A DNA stretch of 36,647 nucleotides from a bacterium (lineage in GTDB: Bacteria > UBP15 > UBA6099 > JAJRTR01), in contig JAJRTR010000150.1 of the NCBI GenBank assembly GCA_024278215.1, positions 1-36,647 of the forward strand, in the 5' to 3' direction. Under the pieces are notes generated by a model. That model was not told the origin of the DNA, searched no databases, and worked only from the letters and a program-made list of their open reading frames with translations. Below, piece after piece: positions 8,075-36,647 of the stretch (within the stretch, counting starts at the first letter, position 1; the number at the start of each line of letters is the position of its first letter). A program made the position numbers and the translations under genes.

Positions 8075-8253
8075 GAGCCAATTGCAAAATTATGATTCTG
8101 CTGCGGTCGGCTGCAATTGTCCATAGCTGCGTTGTCGGCAGAAAATCATCCTCAACGTACTCGGTGAGTACGCCTGCGGGAATTTTGCACCTCCGCCTTG
8201 CTTCTGAAAAATTTCGTTCGACCTCGCTTCGAACATAATTTTGCAATTTCCTC
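8075..8253. repeat. Family A foldback element, copy 1
   Basis: A ~179-bp imperfect palindrome. The ends match as inverted repeats (AATTGCAAAATTATG near 8080-8094 against its complement near 8235-8249), and the centre is a perfect hairpin, GTACTC-GGT-GAGTAC. Related copies lie at 28606-28783 (same orientation) and 36506-36647 (inverted, cut by the window end). It resembles a MITE or foldback repeat and contains no transposase. Differences between copies are often compensated on the opposite arm, so each copy keeps the ability to fold. Confidence 0.8.
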
Positions 8254-17532: not shown

Positions 17533-19890
17533 ATGATAAAACTACGCCGCATCACTCAGGTCGTTTCGCTGCTGTTTTTTGTTTCCCTTCTTTCATTAAC
17601 GATCTATCCTCTCACATTGCCGCCGGGCCTTGTAGATATTTATCTGCACCTGAGCCCGCTGCATCTACTGGCCGTATCTCTCAACGTATGGAAGTTTTTC
17701 GCGGTCTTTCTGCCCGCGATTGTGCTGCTCGCGCTCACTCTGCTGCTGGGCAGGTTCTTCTGCGGCTGGGTGTGTCCGATGGGGATAACGCTCGATGTCA
17801 CCGACAGGATTCTCACTACAAAGAAAAAGAAACACGACGATTCCACGGAACCGCTGCCGCTGAAACCGCTTAAATACGGATTGCTCGTCTGCATACTGGT
17901 CGCCGCCTATTTCGAGGCTAATCTTGCCGGATGGTTCGACCCGCAATCGCTGATAACAAGGACTTACGTGCAGGTGTTCCTGCCCGCTTTCCAGTATGCA
18001 ACGGACCTGATATTCAGGGGCCTTTACCCGATAGGTTTCGCGCGGCCTGTTGTAGAAGGTGCGCATTCTTTTTTCAAGACGACTCTCTACGCGCTCGAAC
18101 AACCCTCGTTCCACGGCAGCGCGGCGACATTTCTTATATTCATGCTGATCGCGCTGCTCGTGTTTTTCAATCGCCGTTTCTGGTGCAGGTTCCTGTGTCC
18201 TATGGGTGCGGTTCTTGCGCTGACATCCCGCTTTTCGCTCTTTAAACGCACTGTGGACGAAACGAAGTGCATCAACTGCAACCGCTGTGTGCGCAACTGC
18301 CGGATGGGCGCTATAGAAGTGGGCGGAAAAACGGGCTACAGGGGCGAGTGCATCGAGTGTTTCACCTGCGTCGACGTATGCCCGGTGGATGCCGTCGCGT
18401 TCAGGCCTGTGTGGATGCGCGGCGCGGATAAGCTGCCGGTGAGCTTCACGCGCAGGACGCTTGTGCTGTCGGCGGGAGCGGGGATTATGGCGGTGCCGGT
18501 GGTGAGGCTGGCCGCCGGACAGCCGGCGAGAAGTCCCATCAGGCCGCCGGGTGCGGGGGCCGCCGCGGGCCGCGATTACTTTATGCAGACCTGCATCCGT
18601 TGCGGAGAGTGCATGAGGGTGTGCCCGACAAACGCGATCCAGCCGGCGTGGTTCGACGCGGGTGTCGAAGGCTTGTGGACGCCGGAGATCGTGCCGCGGA
18701 ACGGCTATTGTTCGTACAATTGCACCCTCTGCGGACAGGTGTGCCCGTCGGGCGCGATTCAGCGCCTCGTGCCGACCGAAAAGAAACGCAGGCAGCTCGG
18801 CATCGCCGTGTTCGACCACAACAGGTGCATACCCTGGTCGCGCGCGGAGAACTGCCTGGTGTGCGAAGAGCATTGCCCGGTAGCCGGCAAAGCTATAAGG
18901 TTTCGCACCGGGGAGATGCCCGGCGACACGGGCGCGCTGGTGCAGGTGAAGCTGCCTTACGTTGTCGAAGCGGAGTGCATCGGCTGCGGGATATGTGAGA
19001 ACAAATGTCCGCTGCACGGCAGGGCGGGTGTGCGCGTGACGGGTTTCATGCCGCAGACGATGAAAGTGGCCGGGGCGAGCGCGCCGCAGGCGCGTAAAGG
19101 GATCGAATCCCTCCTGCCCTCGACACTTGCCGGATGGCGCGCTGTTTATGATGTCGATACATACAGGAAAGATAATCTGTTCGAGTTCATAGACGGAGGC
19201 GCGGAAGTATATTACGAATACGGATATGAAGAAGCGGCGACAAGGGACTATGAGAAGGGCGACGCCTCGCTTACGGTGGACATCTTCAGGATGTCGGACA
19301 GCGACGCCGCCTATGGCGTAATGACATACGAGCGGCCCTGGGGAGCGGCACCGGCACTGGTGGGGGAGGCAGGCTATTTATCCGGCGGAATGCTCGGGTT
19401 CAGGCAGGCAGCCTATTATGTGAAAATAAATTATTACGGCGACGGCATTGGTAATGATGTGCTGGAGAAGGTCGGCGGCCTGATAGCTTCTATGATCGGC
19501 AACAAAGGCGGGCCGCCTGAAATTCTGTCACTGCTTCCGTCCGGTATTCCCGAAGAGGCCGCGAAGATTGTCGGCGGGCCACTCACTGTACGGGGATTCC
19601 ACAATTTCGGAGACGGAGTTATCGATTTCGCCGGCGGCGCGCGAGGTCTTTATTATACGCAAAAAGATGATTCGGACACAGGCGGCGCGAGTGTTCTCCG
19701 GATGAAGTTTGCAGACGGGGCGGCGATGACTTCGACTGCGAAATCAATAGAAAAATCGCTTGAAAGCGACGGCTACACGCGAGTTTCGGACAATTTGTTT
19801 GCGGGACACAGCGAAAAGTTTTCGCTGAATTTCAATGTCGCACCGGCACCGATTCTTGAAGTTGTGAAAACACACAAGATCAGTTTATGA
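17533..19890 (+). CDS. NapH/MauN-like membrane polyferredoxin fused to DUF6599-like domain
   Basis: About 785 residues; the ATG at 17533 is chosen over an adjacent TTG at 17530 (numbering below counts the TTG as 1). The N-terminal part has about four to five membrane segments with the NapH-type motifs FCGWVCPMG (Cys78, Cys82) and WCRFLCPMG (Cys219, Cys223), then 4Fe-4S motifs starting at Cys247 and Cys274. A second twin-arginine-like stretch (308-309, TRRTLVLSAGAG) precedes a NapG/MauM-like ferredoxin part with clusters beginning near Cys355, Cys398, Cys442 and Cys483. Residues about 525-786 resemble DUF6599 (LLPSTLAGW, FEFIDGGAEVYYEYGY). It looks like a membrane electron-transfer protein joining what are usually separate H and G subunits. 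The 3' end overlaps serS convergently by 11 bp. Confidence 0.88.
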   Translation: MIKLRRITQVVSLLFFVSLLSLTIYPLTLPPGLVDIYLHLSPLHLLAVSLNVWKFFAVFLPAIVLLALTLLLGRFFCGWVCPMGITLDVTDRILTTKKKKHDDSTEPLPLKPLKYGLLVCILVAAYFEANLAGWFDPQSLITRTYVQVFLPAFQYATDLIFRGLYPIGFARPVVEGAHSFFKTTLYALEQPSFHGSAATFLIFMLIALLVFFNRRFWCRFLCPMGAVLALTSRFSLFKRTVDETKCINCNRCVRNCRMGAIEVGGKTGYRGECIECFTCVDVCPVDAVAFRPVWMRGADKLPVSFTRRTLVLSAGAGIMAVPVVRLAAGQPARSPIRPPGAGAAAGRDYFMQTCIRCGECMRVCPTNAIQPAWFDAGVEGLWTPEIVPRNGYCSYNCTLCGQVCPSGAIQRLVPTEKKRRQLGIAVFDHNRCIPWSRAENCLVCEEHCPVAGKAIRFRTGEMPGDTGALVQVKLPYVVEAECIGCGICENKCPLHGRAGVRVTGFMPQTMKVAGASAPQARKGIESLLPSTLAGWRAVYDVDTYRKDNLFEFIDGGAEVYYEYGYEEAATRDYEKGDASLTVDIFRMSDSDAAYGVMTYERPWGAAPALVGEAGYLSGGMLGFRQAAYYVKINYYGDGIGNDVLEKVGGLIASMIGNKGGPPEILSLLPSGIPEEAAKIVGGPLTVRGFHNFGDGVIDFAGGARGLYYTQKDDSDTGGASVLRMKFADGAAMTSTAKSIEKSLESDGYTRVSDNLFAGHSEKFSLNFNVAPAPILEVVKTHKISL

Positions 19891-21166
19891 CATCGAAGTC
19901 AAGATACTTCTGAAGAGCGCCGGGGACTTTTATGCTCCCATCTTCCTGCTGATAATTCTCCAATATGGCGAGCAGTGTTCTCGATATGGCGAACGCGGTG
20001 CCGTTAAGCGTATGTAAATATGCGGTCTTTCCGGTTTCCTTCGATTTATACTTAATATTCAACCTTCGCGACTGATAATCGGTACAATTGGATGTAGAGG
20101 TGATTTCGCCCCAGTTGCCGGCGACATTTTTATCTTCATTGTGGCGGCCCGGCATCCATGCTTCAAGGTCATATTTCCGGTAGGCCGGTCCGCCGAGGTC
20201 TCCCGTGCAGATGTCGACTGTCCTGAAAGGTATGTCCAATTCTTTATACAACTGCTCCTCTATCTGCCTCAAATATTCGTGCATCTCGCCCGATTTGTCC
20301 GGGTGCGTAAATGCGAACATTTCGATTTTTGTGAATTGATGCACACGGTACAGGCCTTTGGAGAATTTACCGTAAGACCCGGCTTCGGTCCTGAAACAAT
20401 GTGATATGCCCGCCAGTTTTAAGGGAAGATCATCTTCGTCGATTGTAGTATTCGAGTACATGCCGCCGAGCGTTATCTCGGAAGTTCCGATCAAGCACAA
20501 GTCGGAATCTTCTATGGTGTACACCTGTGTTTCGTTTCCTCTCGGATTAAATCCAATGCCTTCCAGTATCTCACTTTTTGCAAGGTCGGGGGTCGAGACC
20601 AATGTGAAACCATTCTCAAGCAATACATCCAGCGCAAACCTTGTCAGCGCGTACTCGAGCAGGACCGCTTCGTTCTTGAGAAAATAGAATCGGGCACCCG
20701 ACACTTTCGCGGCTGCCTGGAAGTCGATCAGATCAAGTTCACGCCCCAATTCGACATGGTCCTTCGGGGTGAATGCAAACTCCGTGGGTTCTTTGTAGCG
20801 AGAAATCTCTACATTATCATCTTCATTTTTACCTATCGGCGAGTCGGGATGGGATATGTTTGGAACTTTCTTCAGTTCTTCTACATATTTCCTTGACAAT
20901 TCGTCCAGTCCGACCTCCTTTTGCGCGATCTCCTCTTTTAACTTTTTACTCTTGTCTATGAGCGATTGCCTGTCGTCCTGTGATGCCGCCGATATTTGCT
21001 TATTAATTATGTTTCGTTGATTACGCAGATCGTCGACAGCAGCCTGCAACTCGTTCTTTTTTCTATATATTTCAATCAGGCCGTCGATGTCCAGCGACAG
21101 GTTTCTGTTCCTGATATTGGTTTTCACCAATTCAGGATTATCAATTATAAATTTAATATTCAGCAT
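19880..21166 (-). CDS. serS: Seryl-tRNA synthetase
   Basis: 428 residues, normal length. The N-terminal coiled-coil arm (about 30-100) binds the tRNA-Ser long arm. The class II core has a TSE loop (228-230), motif 2 FRTEAGSYGKFSKGLYRVHQF (starting at 258) and motif 3 LNGTAFAISRTLLAILEN (387-404, catalytic Arg396). Motif 3 is usually LNGSGLAVGRTLVAILEN, so this is a divergent branch. GC is about 37-45 % in sampled lines, well below neighbours, which with the divergent motif suggests horizontal acquisition. It lies 81 nt downstream of the LolA-like gene on the same strand. I see no T-box structure in that short gap. Confidence 0.97.
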   Translation of the reverse strand: MLNIKFIIDNPELVKTNIRNRNLSLDIDGLIEIYRKKNELQAAVDDLRNQRNIINKQISAASQDDRQSLIDKSKKLKEEIAQKEVGLDELSRKYVEELKKVPNISHPDSPIGKNEDDNVEISRYKEPTEFAFTPKDHVELGRELDLIDFQAAAKVSGARFYFLKNEAVLLEYALTRFALDVLLENGFTLVSTPDLAKSEILEGIGFNPRGNETQVYTIEDSDLCLIGTSEITLGGMYSNTTIDEDDLPLKLAGISHCFRTEAGSYGKFSKGLYRVHQFTKIEMFAFTHPDKSGEMHEYLRQIEEQLYKELDIPFRTVDICTGDLGGPAYRKYDLEAWMPGRHNEDKNVAGNWGEITSTSNCTDYQSRRLNIKYKSKETGKTAYLHTLNGTAFAISRTLLAILENYQQEDGSIKVPGALQKYLDFDVIN

Positions 21167-22578: not shown

Positions 22579-23814
22579 TTAATAAAACCCCATTCCTGCG
22601 AAGGACACAACCGAGCCGCTGTGCGTATCATTCATCTGTTCATATTCAAGGACTTCGCCTCTTTGAGCGGCAATCGATTTCAGGAAAATGTATATAGCGG
22701 GAAAGCCGCATACCCGGCGCGCGTCGCCATCCTGCGCGATCGAGTTGAAGAAAGCCGTTGCGTCGATACGCTCGACGGTTTGCAGCATCGCCCTGTCTCT
22801 CTTTTCAATCATTTCGCAAGTTGCCACGCCGGGCGCGTCGGCATCTCCGAAACGGCGCCCCACGTGCGCCAGGTCCACTCCGCCGACCCAGCAAACGTCC
22901 CTCGCGCCCACCGCCGCCCGGAGCGCTTCGAGGAAATCTCTAACTTCCGGCACTGTGTCCGGCTCCTCACCGCTCTCGACCATCGGATGAAACGACGAAC
23001 ATAATATCGGCAATATCGGCGGCGGTGTCTCGTCGCCATAAAGATGTTTCAGAAATACTGTCTGGAACTCGATCGAATGTTCATTCCTGTGTTCGAACTC
23101 CTCGGCGAATATCGAGTCGCCCAGCTTCGAGCGCAGTATTTCCACACCAGAGCGGTCCACCGGCACGGTTCCGAGCGGTGTCTCGAAGTCGCGGTCGACG
23201 ACAGTGAAATAATTCTCCGACATAGCATGTGCGATACCGATAACGACAAAAAGATCGGGCCTGCGGCCCCTCAACGCGGAATACGCCTTCGCGAAACACG
23301 GCCCGCCGTGCCGGATGTCTATGTGCGGGGCGAGAATGCCTTTAATGTCGTTCACCGGTGTGTTTTCGCCCGGTTCGAGCCCCTGCTGCCCGGCAACGCC
23401 CGCGGTTTTATAAAAAGAATCAAGGAGCGACTTCAGTTCGGCGGGGTCCGCCGGGTAGCTGATGCCGGCGTGCGAACTCGGCCGCGCGTCTAGACATTCG
23501 TAATCGCGGCGGACCTGTTCCATCTTGCTCCGGAAACGGGCGTTATCGAGGAAATAATATTCATCGAGTTTCTGTACAAGTTCGTCGATCTGCGCGCGGG
23601 GAAGTATCTCGTTTGTACGACGTGCAAAGTCGGCCTGGATGTCCAGCACGGATTTTACGCCGTCGAACTGGCTGATGATATAAAAAGCGAAATCGTTAAT
23701 GAATATTGTCTGGTCGGTAATCCGCTGGGGGTCGCGCAGGCAGATGCTGCGCTCGCCCTCATATTCCACCGGGAACGCCTCAATCGGCCTCAATTTCGGT
23801 TTTTCGTCCATCAT
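22579..23814 (-). CDS. amrB: AmmeMemoRadiSam system protein B (Memo-like) with N-terminal PqqD-like domain
   Basis: 411 residues. Residues about 115-411 are a Memo-type domain: HAGISYPAD (115-123), APHIDIRHGG (162-171), VVIGIAH with His196, EHSIEFQTVFL with His246, GGVDLAHVG and GFPAIYIFL. Histidines 164, 196 and 246 match the metal/active-site histidines of Memo proteins, related to non-haem iron dioxygenases. Residues about 1-105 are an added domain reminiscent of PqqD-like small winged folds (FINDFAFYIISQFDGVKSVLDIQADF). The partner AmmeCR1 and radical-SAM genes are not in the window. It is the last gene of an ancestral four-gene operon, now separated from the phosphoesterase by a family D insertion. 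GAGGG precedes the first of two adjacent ATGs. Confidence 0.88.
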   Translation of the reverse strand: MMDEKPKLRPIEAFPVEYEGERSICLRDPQRITDQTIFINDFAFYIISQFDGVKSVLDIQADFARRTNEILPRAQIDELVQKLDEYYFLDNARFRSKMEQVRRDYECLDARPSSHAGISYPADPAELKSLLDSFYKTAGVAGQQGLEPGENTPVNDIKGILAPHIDIRHGGPCFAKAYSALRGRRPDLFVVIGIAHAMSENYFTVVDRDFETPLGTVPVDRSGVEILRSKLGDSIFAEEFEHRNEHSIEFQTVFLKHLYGDETPPPILPILCSSFHPMVESGEEPDTVPEVRDFLEALRAAVGARDVCWVGGVDLAHVGRRFGDADAPGVATCEMIEKRDRAMLQTVERIDATAFFNSIAQDGDARRVCGFPAIYIFLKSIAAQRGEVLEYEQMNDTHSGSVVSFAGMGFY

Positions 23815-23837
23815 CAGCCCTCGATTTCAGAATCTTA

Positions 23838-24038
23838 CTAAACTTGTGCGTTTTTCTATATATTGTGAGACTTTTGGGAACATGACTGAAATTCGACATT
23901 TAGTTCCAATACCGTTAAGTTAAGACCTAATGTGCCAAATAACGCCATTGTTTATCTGCGTTTTTATAGTTTTTACACTACCCCATCGAACATCTTTTCC
24001 TTGTTGACATGGCACTACCTTTTATAAAAACGCACAAG
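23838..24038. mobile_element. Family D MITE-like insertion with 12-bp flanking direct repeat
   Basis: About 201 bp, AT-rich, non-coding. Direct repeat TTCAGAATCTTA flanks it at 23826-23837 and 24039-24050. Inverted repeats AACTTGTGCGTTTTT (23841-23855) and its exact complement (24026-24040) sit at the ends; the left end has five extra bases (CTAAA) between the direct repeat and the core inverted repeat. Deleting the element plus one direct repeat leaves the phosphoesterase TGA, 12 nt containing GAGGG, then the Memo ATG. No second copy is visible in this window. Confidence 0.75.
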
Positions 24039-24039
24039 T

Positions 24040-24516
24040 TCAGAATCTTATGATTTTTCCGGTAATTTTACTGCCTTCCACAGCGAGAATGCCGAAATAA
24101 GGCCTTCTTTCGCGGCGGCGCCGGGTGGGCGAGCCCGGATTGAAATGGAGCACACCGTCGCGAACAGTGTTTTCCGGACTGTGCGTGTGTCCGAAGACGA
24201 CGCAATCGACTTTCCGACCGAAAACGCCTTCAGGCGGCGGGTAGAAGACATGCACCATGCCGATTATGCATCCCTCGACTTCCACTATTCTCTTTATCGG
24301 CGCAAGTTGTTCATTGTGTTCGTGGTGAATGTTGCCACGCACCGCCAGCACGGGCGCGACGAGTTCCATGTTGCGCAGGGCTCCCAGGGCGACGATGTCT
24401 CCCGCGTGAAGTATCATCCGCACACCGGCCTCGACGAATCCCGCCTGAACCGGCCCCGGCAGCGACTGCGTGCCGCGCGAAAAATGTGTGTCCGATATTA
24501 CGCCTATTTTTGTCAT
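24040..24516 (-). CDS. YfcE/MJ0936-type metallophosphoesterase
   Basis: 158 residues, the usual length for small calcineurin-like phosphodiesterases. Metal ligands: Asp9 and His11 (SDTH), Asp40 (HAGD), Asn62 (RGNIHHEHN), His89 (GMVHV), His110 and His112 (FGHTH). The family hydrolyses phosphodiesters in vitro with two metal ions; the natural substrate is unknown. GNIHHE replaces the common GNCD. The stop codon TGA lies inside the right-hand copy of the 12-bp direct repeat next to the family D element. The gene begins 14 nt after the phospholipase-D-like gene, in the same operon. Confidence 0.92.
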   Translation of the reverse strand: MTKIGVISDTHFSRGTQSLPGPVQAGFVEAGVRMILHAGDIVALGALRNMELVAPVLAVRGNIHHEHNEQLAPIKRIVEVEGCIIGMVHVFYPPPEGVFGRKVDCVVFGHTHSPENTVRDGVLHFNPGSPTRRRRERRPYFGILAVEGSKITGKIIRF

Positions 24517-24530
24517 ATCAGTTCATCAGA

Positions 24531-25088
24531 TCAACCGGCTGTCTTCGGCGATTCCAGAGGCACTATGCAGTGCTTGCGCCTGCCGCATTTCCTGCATTTC
24601 GCGCCGTTCCATATCGCGTCGTAGAGCGCGGCGATCTGGTCCATGACCCTGTCTTCGCCGCTCATCATGCCGATCTCGAAGTTCCTGCGTCCCCTGCCCT
24701 TCATCCCTATGCCCGCGCCCGTGAAATTCGCGCTGCCGACATACACTTTCCTGCTGTCGATCAGTACACATTTGAAATGCACGCGCACGCATCGGCGCAT
24801 GTCGAAATTCGGCGAATGCAGCAATTTCCGCCTTTCTTTCAACTCACTGAGGAACGACCCGGACGGAACGCCGGAATGCAGGAGCCGGATGCGCACCCCC
24901 CGCGCTGCAAGTCGCTCGAACAGCTCGATCGACGACCCGACCGCGCCCGCCCCCAACGCGACAAACATGTTTTTCACGTTCGCCGTGGCGATCCACACCG
25001 AGTGGCGCGCTTTCATCATGCCGTTTTCGACAACTTCCGTATATATCGCTTCATTTAAGAGTAGTTCCTTCATATTCAGGCGACACAT
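24531..25088 (-). CDS. Single-HKD phospholipase D-like protein with C-terminal Cys cluster
   Basis: 185 residues. One HKD motif: His104, Lys106, Asp111 and GSANFTG with Asn121 (HFKCVLIDSRKVYVGSANF). Single-motif PLD proteins such as the nuclease Nuc work as dimers, so a phosphodiesterase or nuclease role is plausible. The N-terminus (IATANVKNMFV) matches the first PLD strand. The C-terminal CRKCGRRKHC (Cys165, 168, 174) could bind zinc with a fourth ligand elsewhere. The gene starts 9 nt after the tatD-like stop; an internal ATG five codons in is an alternative start with no better ribosome site. Confidence 0.85.
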   Translation of the reverse strand: MCRLNMKELLLNEAIYTEVVENGMMKARHSVWIATANVKNMFVALGAGAVGSSIELFERLAARGVRIRLLHSGVPSGSFLSELKERRKLLHSPNFDMRRCVRVHFKCVLIDSRKVYVGSANFTGAGIGMKGRGRRNFEIGMMSGEDRVMDQIAALYDAIWNGAKCRKCGRRKHCIVPLESPKTAG

Positions 25089-25097
25089 TTCCCGACA

Positions 25098-25898
25098 TTA
25101 TTCCTTCGCATCCGGCGGCCCCAGCCATGCGGCGACACTATCGCCGAAAAGACGCGCCGCGTTCCGGGTGGTCGCTTCGGCGATTTCCTCGACGGTGACA
25201 CCCCGCACCCGCGCTATTTCTTCCGCTATCGCCGGGATATACGACGGCTCGTTGCGCTTGCCGCGCCGGAACTGCGGTGTAAGAAACGGGCAATCCGTCT
25301 CGAGCATAAGGCGGTCGAGCGGCACACGCCGGACGACATCCCGCAGCCTGTCGTTTTTCGGATATGTCACCGGCCCGCCAACCGAAATATGCAACCCCAG
25401 CTCGAGTGTCTGCTCCAGGAACGCCGGCCCGCCCGAGAAACAGTGCATCACACCCTTTAGCGTCGCTCCGGCACCTCTTATCATGTCGATCATATCGTCG
25501 TTTGCCGCCCGGCAGTGGAACACGAGCGGATAGTCCGTCGGCACGCAGAGTTCGAGCACCTGCTCGAAAACTTTACGCTGAATGTCCACAGGAGAATAAT
25601 CCTTGAAATAGTCCAGCCCCATCTCGCCGATGCCGATATATTCTCCATCGTGCGCGGCGAGGAAGTCCTTGAAAACAGCGAGATCGAAGCTCTTCGCCTC
25701 GTGCGGGTGCGCGCCGACGATGGGAAACACCGACGGGTACTTCTCCGCCAGCGCGAGCACCTGCCTGTTTGTTTCCGTGTCGAGTCCGACCTCGAAAACG
25801 GCAGCCACACCCGCGTCCAGTGCCCGTTGTATTACGTCATCGCGGTCTTCGTCGAAATTCCTGAAAAAAGTATGTGCGTGTGAATCAATAAATTTCAT
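25098..25898 (-). CDS. TatD family metal-dependent hydrolase
   Basis: 266 residues, normal length. Metal ligands of the TIM-barrel amidohydrolase fold: His7 and His9 (DSHAH), Glu92 (GEMGLDY), His128 (FHCR), His152 (MHCFSG) and Asp202 (ETDCPFLTP). Other family motifs: VGAHPHEA, RGKRNEPSYI and TRNAARLF. Family members are 3'-5' exonucleases or D-aminoacyl-ester/DNA-repair enzymes; the exact substrate here is unknown. GGAG lies 8 nt before the ATG. It heads the operon tatD-like, PLD-like, yfcE-like, memo. Confidence 0.95.
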   Translation of the reverse strand: MKFIDSHAHTFFRNFDEDRDDVIQRALDAGVAAVFEVGLDTETNRQVLALAEKYPSVFPIVGAHPHEAKSFDLAVFKDFLAAHDGEYIGIGEMGLDYFKDYSPVDIQRKVFEQVLELCVPTDYPLVFHCRAANDDMIDMIRGAGATLKGVMHCFSGGPAFLEQTLELGLHISVGGPVTYPKNDRLRDVVRRVPLDRLMLETDCPFLTPQFRRGKRNEPSYIPAIAEEIARVRGVTVEEIAEATTRNAARLFGDSVAAWLGPPDAKE

Positions 25899-28605: not shown

Positions 28606-28783
28606 GAGCAAGTTGCAAAATTCTGATTCGGCTACAGTCGGCTGCAATGGTCAACAGCTGCGTTGTCGGCACAAAATCATCCTCGACGTACTCTACAAGT
28701 ACGCCTGCGGGGATTTTGCACCTCCGCCTTGCTTCTGACCATTTCGCTCGACCTCGCTTCGAACATAATTTTGCAACTTGCTC
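28606..28783. repeat. Family A foldback element, copy 2
   Basis: 178 bp. Terminal inverted repeat GAGCAAGTTGCAAAATT at 28606-28622, matched at the right end (AATTTTGCAACTTGCTC). TTTA abuts both ends (28602-28605 and 28784-28787), a possible 4-bp target duplication. The centre is CGTACT-CTACA-AGTACG. Compared with copy 1, changes are paired: AATT/AATT near the tips becomes AGTT/AACT, and an inner TGGTCA is matched by TGACCA on the other arm. Confidence 0.8.
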
Positions 28784-36505: not shown

Positions 36506-36647
36506 TGAGCCAATTGCAAAATTATGTTCGTAGCGAGGTCGAGCGAAATTGTTCAGAGCAAGGCGGAGGTGGAAAATCCTCGCAGGCGTACTTGTAGAGT
36601 ACGTCGAGGACGATTTTTTGCCGACAACGCAGCTATGGACAATAGCA
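36506..36647. repeat. Family A foldback element, copy 3 (cut by window end)
   Basis: Same family as 8075-8253 and 28606-28783 but in the opposite orientation. It starts TGAGCCAATTGCAAAATTATG and has the centre TACTTGTAGAGTA. The outer part of its right arm is beyond the window. It lies just upstream of the GT-C-like gene, where the operon promoter should be. An apparent frame within it has an in-frame stop that copies 1 and 2 lack. Confidence 0.75.

Follow-up and report, generated by a model that had tools for sequence, protein, structure and literature searches.

A transposase-less MITE at the phosphoesterase–Memo junction of a four-gene bacterial operon

A 206-bp element without a transposase gene is inserted at the yfcE end within a four-gene operon, and both neighbouring genes are undamaged. 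The window analysed is the whole 36,647-nucleotide stretch of contig JAJRTR010000150.1. We are highly confident that the segment is a copy of a repeat family, which we call family D, inserted, presumably by a DDE transposase working in trans, into the heptamer AATCTTA with its neighbours left intact.

The element and its site

The initial annotation had described a tatD–PLD–yfcE–memo operon split by a segment of about 201 bp. The gene set is borne out by the domains of the four products (TatD, PLD-like, Metallophos_2 and Memo; Table 1), as are the operon spacings of 9 nt (25089–25097) and 14 nt (24517–24530). The insert itself is longer than proposed, at 206 bp (23838–24043), and holds no open reading frame of at least 80 residues. 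The 12-bp direct repeat TTCAGAATCTTA is present at 23826–23837 and 24039–24050, and the inverted repeats form arms at 23838–23858 and 24023–24043 that are 90% complementary over 21 nt, with the two 18-nt ends of the insert one base apart. As a multicopy element of 50–500 bp with terminal inverted repeats (TIRs), a target-site duplication (TSD) of fixed length and no transposase gene, the insert has the properties of a MITE.

Table 1. Features of the operon and of the inserted element (window coordinates)
Feature	Position	Strand	Basis
TatD DNase, operon member	25098..25898	-	profile search
PLD-like domain protein, operon member	24531..25088	-	profile search
YfcE-like phosphoesterase (Metallophos_2), upstream neighbour of insert	24040..24516	-	PF12850, E=8e-27
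Phosphoesterase TGA stop, within element tip (CTGA)	24040..24042	-	reconstruction; C-terminus compared with relatives
Memo-family protein, downstream neighbour of insert	22579..23814	-	PF01875, E=6e-42
Family D MITE, complete, without transposase coding capacity	23838..24043	.	206 bp; TIRs, TSD, genome-wide copies
Left TIR, CTAAACTTGTGCGTTTTT	23838..23855	+	1 mismatch to family TIR
Right TIR, CTGAACTTGTGCGTTTTT	24026..24043	-	exact family consensus
7-bp TSD AATCTTA, left copy	23831..23837	.	7/7 match at family boundary
7-bp TSD AATCTTA, right copy	24044..24050	.	comparison with other copies
TTCAG, original flank equal to the element's last 5 nt (24039-24043)	23826..23830	.	sequence; 118-end flank test
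Foreign middle, left part of a family E MITE (ends CAATACCGTTCAGTTAAG), replacing the usual family D middle	23907..23972	+	sequence matches

The gap between yfcE and memo is now 225 nt and falls to 12 nt when 213 bp are excised. The proposed pre-insertion arrangement is thereby recovered, TGA-AATCGAGGGCTG-ATG with GAGGG inside the 12 nt, and the reconstructed empty site is identical whether a 12-bp or a 7-bp boundary is used; as reconstructed, it would read ...ATAAGATTCTGAAATCGAGGGCTGATG. The Memo ribosome-binding site GAGGG (CCCTC on the plus strand of the window) is kept beside the insert.

An empty site in relatives, suggested earlier as a check, was found at the level of gene order and not at the nucleotide level, the nearest genomes compared being of the same order. 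In one of these (G002, from another family) the phosphoesterase and Memo genes overlap by ATGA, which argues that the gap seen here is derived; since protein identity is about 40%, this genome supports the adjacency of the genes and not the exact nucleotide site. The first three operon genes are conserved in G001, G003 and G006, where Memo does not adjoin them.

Family D, its mosaic copies and candidate mobilisers

Copies were gathered by pattern and by region from the genome (G000; 4.5 Mb in 207 contigs). A search for further copies had been suggested, and the element gives 53 matches. The 18-nt tip CTGAACTTGTGCGTTTTT, at up to three mismatches, matches 124 times against three for the reversed control, so the repeat is far beyond chance; 36 matches to a variant tip, CTGAACTTGTGCGAATTC, partly overlap the 124. 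Sixteen long copies align with sharp ends and with the outer 70–80 nt or so conserved on each side of a variable middle, which is often a GC-rich hairpin and in one copy holds a further repeat. Members of a short subfamily, about 122 bp long, have the same tips, and copy lengths run from about 120 to 486 bp.

Elsewhere, seven single matches were found across 85k species genomes, which is about chance, and only two single matches, each with two mismatches, in six genomes of the same order; a similarity search of 60 relatives returned none, nor did viral contigs match a pattern built on the TIRs and characteristic of the short subfamily. Family D is apparently a lineage-specific and undescribed MITE family.

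Two other repeats were seen. One, of 416 bp at 72% identity (G000:C31:4902-5311 and G000:C87:141-517), starts with the family tip and extends past the short subfamily. The other, with ends GAGCCAATTGCAAAAT, lies in the window at 8075–8253, 28606–28783 and 36507–36522 (seven matches against 0.37 expected) and at many places in the genome, once nested in a family D copy (C151).

The window copy has a foreign middle, absent from 15 other family D copies, that matches C105, C24 and C48 over 66–67 nt at 88–94% identity and the end of the IS4 element in L179 over 25 nt at 92%. The three longer matches belong to a separate MITE of about 98 bp, family E, with apparent 9–11-bp duplications at C24 and C48. 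Its right half is lost in the window copy, and by inspection the junction falls in a TTTTATAGTTT-like stretch that the two families share. The window copy gained half of this IS4-type MITE, either before or after its own insertion. The ends of family E match those of the resident IS4-family element (transposase NF033592, E=9e-66) and fit the published IS4-subgroup pattern -AATR--------WTW (PMC2266710). This element (L179 1018–2517, G000:C200; ends CCAATACCGTTCAGTTAAG) is the likely mobiliser of family E; as mobiliser of family D it was rejected, its ends differing from D and matching E.

The likeliest mobiliser of family D is an ISPepr1-like IS4-family transposase absent from this assembly, with an IS1634 relative, resident or former, in second place. 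ISPepr1 has ends YT-AA-YTT---A and direct repeats of 7–8 bp in AT-rich targets (PMC2266710). The 7-bp AT-rich duplication of family D fits that length and CTGAACTTG fits YT-AA-YT, with departures at position 9 (G, not T) and position 13 (G, not A); most of the conserved tip positions, with the CT ends, agree with the ISPepr1 features. Unlike that subgroup, with its DDE transposase and YREK motif, the MITE encodes no transposase, and no member of the subgroup was identified in the genome. The search for an autonomous IS with TIR AACTTGTGCG, proposed at the outset, found none among the PF01609, PF00665, PF00872 and PF13612 matches in the genome. Transposases of the rve, Transposase_mut and DDE_Tnp_1_3 families were not found there; the three DDE_Tnp_1 proteins are one IS4 and two IS1634.

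It is possible, if somewhat doubtful, that a resident IS1634 element mobilises family D and that 7 bp is a variant of its usual duplication. The IS1634 family makes 5–6-bp duplications in AT-rich targets and has the end consensus C-----YT (PMC2266710), with which the CTGAACTT ends and AT-rich flanks of family D agree. Five resident copies (L180, L199, L205, L210 and L211, on C48, C150, C14, C178 and C108 of G000) stop sharply on the right at CTGAACTTCCCAACG or a near variant of it, with the terminal 8 nt identical to those of family D, and plasmid relatives have C(C/T)GAAnTT tips. However, the likeness of the TIRs ends after these 8 nt, the plasmid relatives show 6-bp duplications (CTTAGA, TTTAAA and TCTAGA) and the flanks of four of the five resident copies look like NTTAGN, a motif present at only two of 150 family D ends. 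The resident copies are decayed or truncated, with no complete left half in the DNA examined. An ISPepr1-like transposase would provide the better fit to duplication length, since 7–8 bp rather than 5–6 bp is typical of it.

Effects on the operon and use of the tip as a stop

Insertion would have proceeded by cut-and-paste: a DDE transposase supplied in trans would have worked on the CTGAACTT tips and made a 7-bp staggered cut at AATCTTA, within the last phosphoesterase codons. The operon gap would thereby have widened from 12 to 225 nt with the Memo ribosome-binding site intact. The phosphoesterase ends in GKIIRF*, compared with GEIIRL* in G001, G003 and G006 and GEIIKI* in G005. Its last codon (TTC) and TGA stop are completed by element bases equal to the old ones, and were regenerated because the target site continued with CTGAA, just as the element begins.

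Scans of the insert for promoters and terminators detected none, and co-transcription across it therefore probably continues; any translational coupling between yfcE and memo would be lost. The RNA fold of the insert is stable (z = -3.8), and the transcript would gain its 18-bp terminal stem, which could be an RNase III site. Such a fold, and the proposal that MITE stems of Neisseria are RNase III sites (PMC2229807), might be taken to mean that the insert is a regulatory element, an RNA stem or processing site, maintained at this junction. We consider this very unlikely, as any copy would form such a stem through its TIRs and the insert has neither promoter nor terminator nor, in an Rfam scan, any known family. 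The insert makes the junction a well-bounded natural test of the effect of a 213-bp insertion on operon expression.

The use of the tip TGA as a stop recurs among gene ends in this genome, including at tips that have lost the remainder of the element. Where a confidently called gene runs toward an element end, the stop codons are concentrated right at the boundary, and several belong to the tip itself. In the window a partnerless tip-like 18-mer, CTGATCTTGTGTGTTTTC (19866–19883, minus strand), provides the TGA of the seryl-tRNA synthetase gene (19880–21166). An open reading frame of 786 aa on the opposite strand ends just past this 18-mer. Solo tips with a built-in TGA (CTGA) might conceivably be selected as gene-end modules, an idea that we regard as unlikely; if it were true, retention of the tip as a stop would let family D settle at the 3' ends of operon genes at little cost.

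Duplication length and known parallels

The repeat at the window site had been read as a 12-bp duplication, long for a MITE. Comparison of copies gives instead an AT-rich duplication of 7 bp. Among 41 putative pairs of CTG...CAG ends, some of them spurious, perfect 7-bp flank matches occur in six against 0.22 expected from re-pairing, and matches of at least six in seven positions in nine against 0.45; there is no comparable excess at 3–6 or 9–12 bp. Examples are TTATTTA, TAATAAT, TAAACAG, TAATATC and AATCTTA, and one copy (C5) fits an 8-bp duplication. Across 118 ends, AT content is 75–91% at positions -1 to -7 compared with about 57% further out.

The window repeat looks 12 bp long because the flanking TTCAG, beside the 7-bp TSD, is identical to the element's final 5 nt. 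A preference for targets with CAG/CTG adjoining the duplication was ruled out as the source of TTCAG by the same 118 ends, in which there is no enrichment at -8 to -10; since such flanks are not generally preferred, the match looks like coincidence, perhaps favoured as the gene end is kept. A true 12-bp duplication, placing the element in an IS4-like family with 10–13-bp duplications, would account for the 12/12 identity here and an apparent 11-bp repeat at copy C5, but is most improbable given that six copies with the same CTG...CAG boundaries are perfect over 7 bp, most diverging immediately outside, and that AT-richness peaks over those seven positions. With the duplication set at 7 bp, the case shows how a long apparent TSD can arise from a chance match between target flank and element tip.

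These observations document a MITE family with more than 100 terminal-repeat copies in one uncultured lineage. The small intergenic Correia/NEMIS MITEs of Neisseria have long terminal stems and can be co-transcribed with genes (PMC2229807); family D resembles them in size, location and terminal stem, and differs in sequence and host. A parallel to the operon copy is Chunjie of Geobacter uraniireducens, a 235-bp MITE with TIRs and direct repeats, known from copies of 178–235 bp and many partial ones, one copy lying inside an operon whose structure, according to the title of the original report, is not disturbed (Chen et al., 2008, as cited in PMC10969869). Set alongside Chunjie by that description only, family D is likewise a TIR and direct-repeat MITE with an operon copy, although host and locus differ and family D is mosaic and more variable in length. 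Since MITEs of such size inside operons have been described, family D is a new family of an already known kind.
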